Below, one piece after another: positions 827 to 10,803 of a stretch of DNA of 28,553 nt. This DNA is from a virus. The stretch is from positions 1-28,553 of the IMG/VR virus record IMGVR_UViG_3300021375_000121. One strand, given 5' to 3'. Within the stretch, counting starts at the first letter, position 1. Each line of letters begins with the position of its first letter. The notes under the pieces were generated by a model. That model did not search any database, was not told where the DNA came from, and saw only the letters and a program-made list of their open reading frames with translations. Both the position numbers and the translations under genes were made by a program.

Positions 827-877
827 ATCGTTTATCCTGAAACGGACGGAAGTAAACCACAAAGGTTGAAGAAACGC
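827..877 (+). promoter_or_regulatory. glutamine riboswitch aptamer (glnA / Downstream-peptide RNA type)
   Basis: The segment matches, from memory, the glnA RNA consensus in order. ATCGTT opens P1. CGTTT (829-833) pairs with AAACG (872-876); the usual pair is CGTTC/GAACG, so this looks like a compensatory change. P2 is TCC (835-837) with GGA (844-846). Next comes the invariant CGGAAGTA (847-854). P3 is AACC (855-858) with GGTT (864-867) closing loop ACAAA, followed by the conserved GAAG (868-871) and the closing AAACGC. The RNA ends about 20 nt before the start codon of a 51-residue peptide gene, the usual setting of the Downstream-peptide class. glnA RNAs are known from cyanobacteria and marine metagenomes and bind L-glutamine. 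Ligand binding here is inferred from the motif. Confidence 0.85.
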
Positions 878-890
878 TCTTTATTAAAGG
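878..890 (+). promoter_or_regulatory. possible Shine-Dalgarno-masking hairpin (riboswitch expression platform)
   Basis: Directly after P1 of the aptamer, TCTTT (878-882) can pair with AAAGG (886-890, one G-U pair) around a 3-nt loop. The right arm is the Shine-Dalgarno sequence (AAAGGAG) of the peptide gene at 898. This would allow translational control by the aptamer. The stem is short and AT-rich, so this is a hypothesis. Confidence 0.4.
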
Positions 891-897
891 AGATAGT

Positions 898-1053
898 ATG
901 GACTTAATAAAAGACCTACGAGCTTTAAGAAAAGAGAAAAGTAAATTAGACTCTGCTAAAGCTCAATTAAGAAAAAGAAGTAAAGATAGTATTGCTAGAC
1001 CAAAAGCAAAGAAAAATCTTTTTTCTAACGACCCACGTATGCAGAGCATATAG
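898..1053 (+). CDS. riboswitch-controlled 51-residue basic peptide
   Basis: A short ORF with a good Shine-Dalgarno sequence (AAAGGAG, 5 nt before ATG) lying directly behind the glutamine-type riboswitch. The product has 16 Lys/Arg and only 6 Asp/Glu. Its first half (to about residue 30) looks like one charged amphipathic helix (KDLRALRKEKSKLDSAKAQL); the tail is rich in K, N, P and S and ends RMQSI. In cyanobacteria, glutamine riboswitches of this kind control small proteins, including the glutamine-synthetase inactivating factor IF17. A similar role in retuning host nitrogen metabolism is attractive, but by eye there is no clear sequence match to IF7 or IF17. Its stop codon is followed within 7 nt by a strong hairpin. 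Confidence 0.75.
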   Translation: MDLIKDLRALRKEKSKLDSAKAQLRKRSKDSIARPKAKKNLFSNDPRMQSI

Positions 1054-9204: not shown

Positions 9205-10803
9205 ATGGCAAAATTTACAATTAATACAGGTTCAAGTCCGAATGACGGTACAGGTGATAACTTACGTACCGGTGCAACTTATGTAAACAATAACTTTAAT
9301 GAGTTATATAGTGCAATAGGTAACGGAACCATTTTAACCCCATACATTGACTTTGCTGACGATACGTCATCAACGTTGAGAACGAATATTGGTAACCCTA
9401 TTACTATTGAGGGTGGTTTAGGTATTGATACTACTATTACAGGTGGTAAATTTCAAATTAAAGTTAATGCTTCAGTATTAACAGCAACAGCTTCTGCTAC
9501 ATTAACTAACAAAGCAATTTCATTAACTAATAATACTATTACAGGTAATTTCACAGAATTCAATACAGCATTGTCTGGAACAGACTTTGCTTCAACTGAC
9601 CAAGTACAGACAATAACTAATAAGTCTATGAGTGGTGCAGACAACACATTTACAAATATTCCTAATTCTGGTTTATCAAATAGTGGTATTACAGTTAGAG
9701 ATAATACATCTACAACAGATTTCGTACCACTCGGTGAAACTTTATCTATTTTAGGTACAGGTTCAGTATCAAGTTCGGTTACAGGTAACACGGTAACTCT
9801 AAACGTATCAAACTTATCTAACTCTGACTTATCAGGTAGTGCAGGTATCTCAAATGCTAATTTAGCAAATTCAAGTATAACACTTGGTAATAGTTCAGTA
9901 TCTTTAGGTCAAACATTATCATCAGCAGGAAATTTAAATTTAACTGGTACATCTTCATTATCGGGAACAGGTACCGTTGATACAACTGGTTCAGGTTCTA
10001 AAGTTAGAGGTAACTTTTCTAATCAGGCTTCATTCCCTACAGCAACAGACTATTCTGGTTTATTTGCTTTAGATGAAACTCAATTAAAACCTTTTGTTGC
10101 TACTCAATCAGGTTACATTAATATGTTAACAGAGAATGATTCAGTATCAAGACACGCTGACGTAACCATTACAGGTATTTCTAACGGCCACGTTTTAAAA
10201 TGGGTATCAGCAAATGGTCGTTTTGAACCATCAGCTGAATCAGGTGGCGGTTCATCTTTAACGGTTGCAGATGAGGGTGGCGATTTATCAACTGCCGCTA
10301 CTAAATTAGATTTCGTAGGTTCTGGTGTAACCGCTTCAGGAACAGGTGCAACAAAAACAATTACTATATCAGGTGGTGCAGGTGCATTAAACGATTTATC
10401 AGATGTAGTAAATAGTTCGCCAACAGCAGGTATGTCATTAGTTTATAATGGCACAAATTGGGTACAAGCAACAACACCAGTTTCACAATTACTAGTCACA
10501 GCAAATGGTTCAAGTGCATACTTATTTACAGGTGCAGGTTTCCCTTCAACTTCAGGTGACAATCCAGCATTACACTTGAAAAAAGGTCAAACTTACTATT
10601 TTATTAATAACTCTGGTGGTTCACACCCATTCAGAATACAATCAACAACAGGAACCGGTGGTACTGCTTATAATACAGGAGTTACCAATAATGCAGGTGC
10701 TTCAGGAGCAATCATATTTCACGTATCTATGGATACTCCAGCAACTCTTTATTACCAATGTACAGCACACGGCGGTATGAACGGAACAATTAACATAACA
10801 TAG
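9205..10803 (+). CDS. tail fibre-like structural protein with C-terminal cupredoxin-like domain
   Basis: 532 residues. The N-terminus (FTINTGSSPNDGTGDNLRTG, then ATYVNNNFNELYSAIG) is a typical attachment segment of marine phage fibre-like proteins. The middle (about 60-420) is Ser/Thr/Gly/Asn-rich with repeating beta strands, as in trimeric fibres. The last ~105 residues change character: LHLKKGQTYYFINNSGG-SHPF, then a beta stretch and YYQCTAHGGMNG. This is a plastocyanin/cupredoxin-like fold with a full set of possible type 1 copper ligands, H474, C519, H522 and M525. The C-x2-H-x2-M spacing is tighter than in plastocyanin (C-x2-H-x4-M). It has its own late promoter. Confidence 0.78.
   Translation: MAKFTINTGSSPNDGTGDNLRTGATYVNNNFNELYSAIGNGTILTPYIDFADDTSSTLRTNIGNPITIEGGLGIDTTITGGKFQIKVNASVLTATASATLTNKAISLTNNTITGNFTEFNTALSGTDFASTDQVQTITNKSMSGADNTFTNIPNSGLSNSGITVRDNTSTTDFVPLGETLSILGTGSVSSSVTGNTVTLNVSNLSNSDLSGSAGISNANLANSSITLGNSSVSLGQTLSSAGNLNLTGTSSLSGTGTVDTTGSGSKVRGNFSNQASFPTATDYSGLFALDETQLKPFVATQSGYINMLTENDSVSRHADVTITGISNGHVLKWVSANGRFEPSAESGGGSSLTVADEGGDLSTAATKLDFVGSGVTASGTGATKTITISGGAGALNDLSDVVNSSPTAGMSLVYNGTNWVQATTPVSQLLVTANGSSAYLFTGAGFPSTSGDNPALHLKKGQTYYFINNSGGSHPFRIQSTTGTGGTAYNTGVTNNAGASGAIIFHVSMDTPATLYYQCTAHGGMNGTINIT

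Follow-up and report, generated by a model that had tools for sequence, protein, structure and literature searches.

A glutamine-I riboswitch aptamer ahead of a gene for a 51-residue basic protein in a T4-like phage

Why would a virus place a glutamine sensor in front of a gene of only 51 codons? The literature describes phage riboswitches as rare, and their targets have so far been unclear. Glutamine riboswitches in phages are already known, with those of Pelagibacter phage Mosig and the Methylophilales phage Melnitz reported in 2022 (PMC9004378); the passages of that paper on Mosig do not link the switch to a peptide. We analyzed a 28.6-kb virus record in full (here called the window) in which such an RNA lies upstream of a small open reading frame (ORF). 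New relative to the cited literature are the link between the switch and this peptide family, a phage expression platform anchored on nucleotide C60, the association with a late-promoter-like box, a proposed correction for Melnitz, and the copies found in SAR11 bacteria.

The aptamer, its phage, and a late-type box

A first-pass annotation, made from the letters of the window alone, had placed the DNA in a T4-like phage. Homologues of gp25, gp6, gp7, gp8, and gp9/10, baseplate-type genes, bear this out, as does a DNA match to Mosig, the closest isolate, over the first 6.5 kb of the window (77% identity over 66%). Because this region aligns with a Pelagibacter phage, the host is likely SAR11. 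At its C terminus, the gp9/10-like baseplate protein (9205 to 10803) weakly resembles the plastocyanin/azurin family of copper-binding proteins (PF00127, E value of 0.001, below the cutoff).

The same annotation had proposed a glutamine riboswitch, and a covariance search (cmscan/Infernal, Rfam) confirmed one. Positions 827 to 880 of the plus strand match RF01739 with 49.8 bits (gathering score, 35), over the full model (1 to 53, not truncated) and with E values of 2.8e-8 for the whole window and 4.9e-10 for a 501-base stretch. Every one of the ordered elements listed earlier lies within the match, which reaches 880 and not only 877 as first given. The earlier name, glnA/Downstream-peptide RNA, holds for one of its two parts: the element belongs to RF01739 (glutamine-I), while RF01704 (Downstream-peptide, glutamine-II) gave no match up to an E value of 1 in positions 700 to 1200. 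Glutamine-II RNAs resemble the present arrangement as glutamine ON switches ahead of small proteins but differ in their pseudoknot architecture.

P1, P2, and P3 of the three-way junction are all seen in the Rfam alignment of the window aptamer. P1 joins CGUUU (829 to 833) and AAACG (872 to 876) through the pairs C829-G876, G830-C875, U831-A874, U832-A873, and U833-A872; the P2 hairpin occupies 835 to 846 (835 to 837 with 844 to 846), the conserved junction CGGAAGUA 847 to 854, the P3 hairpin AACC/GGUU 855 to 867 (855 to 858 with 864 to 867), GAAG 868 to 871, and AACGC 873 to 877, all on the plus strand. The bases of the binding site are all there: the junction with G848 and G849, which are G22 and G23 in the numbering of the solved structure (PMC5393176, PMC11477058), GAAG, the C1-G59 pair (C829-G876), and C60 (C877). 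The P1 substitution noticed in the first reading, C to T on one side matched by G to A on the other, is real and lies in the fifth pair (833/872). Among the matches listed, this pair is kept in 122 of 123 distinct phage aptamers, as C-G in 92, U-A in 16, and G-C in 14, with 1 unpaired; as in most of our counts across loci, relatedness is ignored. A C stands directly 3′ of P1 in 183 of the 186 phage copies among the matches listed. Plain minimum-energy folding of the leader was no better than that of shuffled sequences (z of 0.24), so the evidence for the aptamer is the covariance model together with the covariation. Judged by these two lines, 827 to 880 is a genuine glutamine-I riboswitch aptamer, and L-glutamine binding is a published property of its family.

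A late-promoter-like box, CTAAATAG (T4 consensus, TATAAATA), stands at 815 to 822 on the plus strand, 12 nt upstream of the aptamer. With T4 late-promoter geometry, transcription would presumably begin at or near the first base of the aptamer; the box and its spacing fit a promoter of this type, with a predicted start at ~827. Of the 143 distinct phage copies listed, 99 have TAAATA no more than 45 nt upstream of the aptamer, compared to 15 ± 3 after shuffling, and its offset in the copies listed is mostly 10 to 20 nt. Boxes in the window at 188, 815, 3201, 3449, 4206, 9182, and 10814 each precede a plus-strand gene start by 12 to 83 nt; their number is not above chance, and only their position favors late promoters. 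The four TATAAATA boxes of the window (3449, 4206, 9182, and 10814), all on the plus strand and 16 to 45 nt before baseplate-region genes, are placed as expected of T4-type late promoters. Taken by its upstream sequence, the 51-residue gene is probably expressed late. A survey of pelagimyophages reported no riboswitches, and late promoters could not be found there (PMC7029224).

The 51-residue protein and its relatives

The small ORF with a strong Shine-Dalgarno sequence that had been noted just downstream of the RNA was upheld. It spans 898 to 1053 on the plus strand (51 codons), follows the Shine-Dalgarno sequence AAAGGAG (886 to 892, plus strand), and encodes MDLIKDLRALRKEKSKLDSAKAQLRKRSKDSIARPKAKKNLFSNDPRMQSI, a basic protein with a net charge of +10 for which AlphaFold2 predicted a helix at residues 3 to 33 and a conserved tail (pLDDT of 84, pTM of 0.46). 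Relatives were found by tblastn in 4 phage genomes, namely, Mosig (74.5% identical) and Pelagibacter phages HTVC103P, HTVC104P, and HTVC023P, and in 291 IMG/VR stretches, of which 80 were kept for analysis. Mosig has the same aptamer and its version of the peptide at the same locus as the window. Substitutions in the gene are strongly skewed to synonymous ones (pN/pS of 0.12); the ORF is real and under purifying selection. A strong hairpin at 1060 to 1087 (−20.1 kcal/mol, z of −3.74) closes the unit; it has a U-run on the minus strand only and is terminator-like there. Matches to Termite-leu in 1018 to 1118, far under the cutoff, are due to this hairpin and were rejected. On the minus strand, three tRNA genes (Met, Leu, and Arg) at 1214 to 1464 point toward the riboswitch unit.

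The first-pass annotation had singled out IF7 and IF17 for comparison with the peptide. We found no match for it in Pfam, PHROGs, NCBIfam, or PDB sequences, and its profile is unlike IF7-like proteins (hhalign probability of 0.1%): hhalign of the latter against three phage peptide profiles returned nothing, a comparison of short, shallow profiles that has little power. The 120 genomes searched from the likely host order yielded one weak fragment with a stop codon and thus no sign of a host origin for the peptide.

Relatives that begin with MD, the T4-like type, have the aptamer directly upstream in 60 of 60 cases with enough upstream sequence. Those that begin with MN, a type that includes HTVC103P, HTVC104P, and HTVC023P, are without it in 20 of 20. 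The MN-type gene overlaps or abuts its neighbors, and the module that they form encodes small proteins of two kinds, membrane and basic. The module of HTVC023P also has an M15 endolysin gene, located two genes downstream of the riboswitch-free homologue. The peptide thus appears useful independently of the switch. Homologues that keep the peptide without the RNA had been held in advance to speak against the proposed pairing; the 20 found here weaken the peptide's dependence on the switch and leave the switch itself unaffected. Since these loci manage without the aptamer, one could regard the riboswitch as a hitchhiking or degenerating element that does not regulate the peptide. We consider this highly improbable, given the retention of the aptamer at every MD-type locus and the compensatory changes in P1 and in the platform across phages.

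Expression platform and direction of control

The last base of AACGC, C877, also opens a hairpin with a covarying stem, C877UCUUU882/A887AGGAG892 (877 to 892, plus strand), which pairs the Shine-Dalgarno sequence. In the solved glutamine-I structure, C60 directly follows P1 (PMC11477058, PMC5393176); when glutamine binds, G22 and G23 become ordered and the linchpin pair G23-C60 forms (PMC11477058, PMC5393176; see also PMC6698751). The positions of G23 and C60 are those of G849 and C877 in the window.

Of the 104 distinct phage platforms listed, 60 have a stem of 5 bp or more that begins at C60, compared to 25 ± 3.6 in an arm-swapped control (5′ arms exchanged between sequences, 500 trials, largest value of 36) that ignores relatedness. 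Arm-swapping was used for the leader comparison; MAFFT misaligned the hairpin arms across different families. The first pair is C-G in every one of the 60, pairs 2 to 5 differ on both sides (e.g., A-U, U-A, and G-U; C-G, U-A, and A-U), and the hairpin encloses the Shine-Dalgarno sequence in all 60, with the stem pairing to it or to the bases just 3′ of it. The other 44 of the 104 platforms have no C60 stem of 5 pairs.

We propose that the switch acts on translation and is ON with glutamine. Without glutamine, 877 to 882 would pair with the Shine-Dalgarno region (887 to 892); with glutamine, G849 (G23) would pair with C877 (C60), the hairpin would lose its closing pair, and the Shine-Dalgarno sequence would be freed. 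A base common to the glutamine-bound aptamer and the hairpin would explain the invariant first pair, and competition for it would make the switch ON, the behavior reported for cyanobacterial glutamine switches (reviewed in PMC6316151). In a platform identical to that of the window, blocking C877 raised the modeled unpaired probability of the Shine-Dalgarno sequence from 0.09 to 0.60. Blocking C60 gave a modeled gain in exposure of more than 0.1 in only 40 of the 140 platforms listed, and the median gain was near zero; losing a single pair may therefore be too little in some families. For this phage, the ON direction and the competition for C877 are likely. Transcription attenuation was rejected, as there is too little room and no terminator between the aptamer and the start codon.

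The opposite direction is harder to reconcile with these data. In an OFF switch, P1 stabilized by glutamine would stack on the Shine-Dalgarno hairpin and keep it closed, and the peptide would be made at low glutamine. P1 and the hairpin do abut without a linker, making coaxial stacking possible, and SAR11 aptamers precede glnA and amt, where repression by glutamine would be physiologically sensible. Against this, the solved structure pairs C60, the first hairpin base in the phages, with G23 when glutamine is bound; the characterized glutamine-I and -II switches are ON (PMC6316151); and the SAR11 leaders have a different platform, arranged in tandem with ~80 to 130 nt to the start codon and without the phage hairpin. 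An OFF switch is, on balance, unlikely. We regard a compact, late-transcribed unit in which a translational ON switch controls a 51-residue basic protein as the best explanation overall and as reasonably probable. The box at 815 would start an mRNA that opens with the 54-nt aptamer, with the start codon soon after, and the protein would build up in the late stage of infection at high levels of free glutamine.

In cyanobacteria, the leaders of IF7-like genes and of DUF4278 genes carry a Shine-Dalgarno hairpin, CGCCUC/GAGGCG, with the same layout as the phage platform. Cyanobacterial glutamine-I RNAs (e.g., that of gifB/IF17) and the window thus have in common the aptamer, a Shine-Dalgarno hairpin starting at C60, and a small protein downstream. 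The window copy differs in its phage setting and in the late-type box ahead of it, and we detected no relationship of its peptide to IF7, IF17, or DUF4278. In seven cyanobacterial RF01739 records, we observed ~50-aa proteins resembling the first half of IF7A (NF052599, two tested), preceded by Shine-Dalgarno hairpins of the CGCCUC/GAGGCG type.

A review calls glutamine switches restricted to cyanobacteria (PMC6316151), and the cyanobacterial framing of the first-pass annotation proved too narrow as well: among 120 genomes sampled from the SAR11 order (that of a Pelagibacteraceae record), 65 have RF01739, in 2 to 8 copies each and often in tandem, and these copies precede amt (ammonium transporter), glnA, and an ORF of ~436 to 469 aa. 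Three records, SAR86-type among them, have RF01739 directly before a GlnII-type glutamine synthetase gene. The leaders of the SAR11 order and SAR86 share the aptamer with the window and belong to the likely host lineage, but they are mostly tandem and long, lack the phage hairpin, and precede amt, glnA, or glnII. The glnA motif, tandem copies included, was described in 2010 (PMC2864571). Tandem glutamine aptamers were also seen in 8 viral contigs.

Other phage copies and the role of the peptides

We scanned IMG/VR with a pattern for RF01739-like elements in phages (sample of 120 stretches), and all 20 of the loci checked by cmscan exceeded the RF01739 cutoff. With genes called by a simple Shine-Dalgarno rule, the downstream ORF was at most 81 aa long in 140 of 140 phage copies that had a callable gene among the matches listed, and the riboswitch-linked peptides make up ~15 families among these matches. 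All 127 distinct peptides listed carry a net positive charge (median of +7); the corresponding median of 54 other small Melnitz proteins is 0 (P value of 5e-7 on family medians).

The Melnitz riboswitch itself lies at 46398 to 46446 (52.8 bits, RF01739) and was assigned to tmRNA control in PMC9004378. Directly after it, at 46469 to 46567, is an unannotated 32-aa ORF, MTLYQQWCYLKAQKEYRRRQKILMYFRIRLKG, with its own Shine-Dalgarno sequence and hairpin, which makes the tmRNA assignment doubtful; the one functional proposal in the literature cited here thus looks misassigned. Our data suggest a simple, testable rule: the glutamine switches of phages control tiny basic proteins, chiefly through occlusion of the ribosome-binding site, and a single base, C60, serves both the ligand-bound aptamer and the hairpin. 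If true, viruses of the most abundant marine bacteria would gauge the nitrogen status of their hosts late in infection and respond by means of very small proteins, one or more of them without annotation.

For the 51-residue protein, the gene context of the riboswitch-free relatives favors a late function (assembly, lysis, or host shutdown) over a metabolic gene. Three readings remain: a late structural or lysis-related protein, a glutamine synthetase (GS) inhibitor resembling inactivating factors, and some other host-directed function. We tentatively read the peptide as a minor virion or lysis-associated protein whose synthesis glutamine merely times, a possibility that we hold with less than even confidence. 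Its gene follows a late-type box and adjoins baseplate genes, and the riboswitch-free homologues overlap genes of the late-looking module, with the HTVC023P endolysin close by. This reading has to contend with the lack of homology to any known structural or lysis protein, and it leaves the shared size and charge of otherwise unrelated riboswitch-linked peptides unexplained.

That shared charge would suit a different role, in which the phage peptides act like GS-inactivating factors: produced when glutamine is plentiful, these small, positively charged proteins would bind and inhibit the glutamine synthetase of the host or another nitrogen protein. Cyanobacterial RF01739 RNAs with the same platform control the ~50-aa proteins matching IF7A (E values of 1e-10 and 3e-7, below the cutoff) and also DUF4278 proteins, and cyanophage-type copies control a peptide with a subthreshold DUF4278 match (E value of 0.001). 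The empty hhalign comparison, the absence of a Pfam, PHROGs, or NCBIfam match, and the occurrence of the peptide without a riboswitch in a late-looking module all argue against this role, as does the finding that two other pelagiphages raise SAR11 glnA and amt transcripts on infection (PMC12753301); we judge it unlikely. The nitrogen-metabolism gene that usually follows RF01739, although not strictly defining for the family, is replaced here by a peptide without a family match. The earlier suggestion that the peptide regulates nitrogen assimilation is possible but unsupported.

More broadly, marine phages of several host groups might share a glutamine-gated late regulon in which one sensor precedes many unrelated tiny basic proteins, inactivating factors made by the phage against the host's glutamine synthetase or another nitrogen protein. 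This is a speculative reading that we think rather improbable; if true, the same sensor in the SAR11 glnA and amt leaders would mean that phage and host read one signal. Finally, three phage contigs carry an RF02980 freshwater-2 RNA within ~1 kb of the glutamine riboswitch, and two of these also carry an RF01745 manA RNA.
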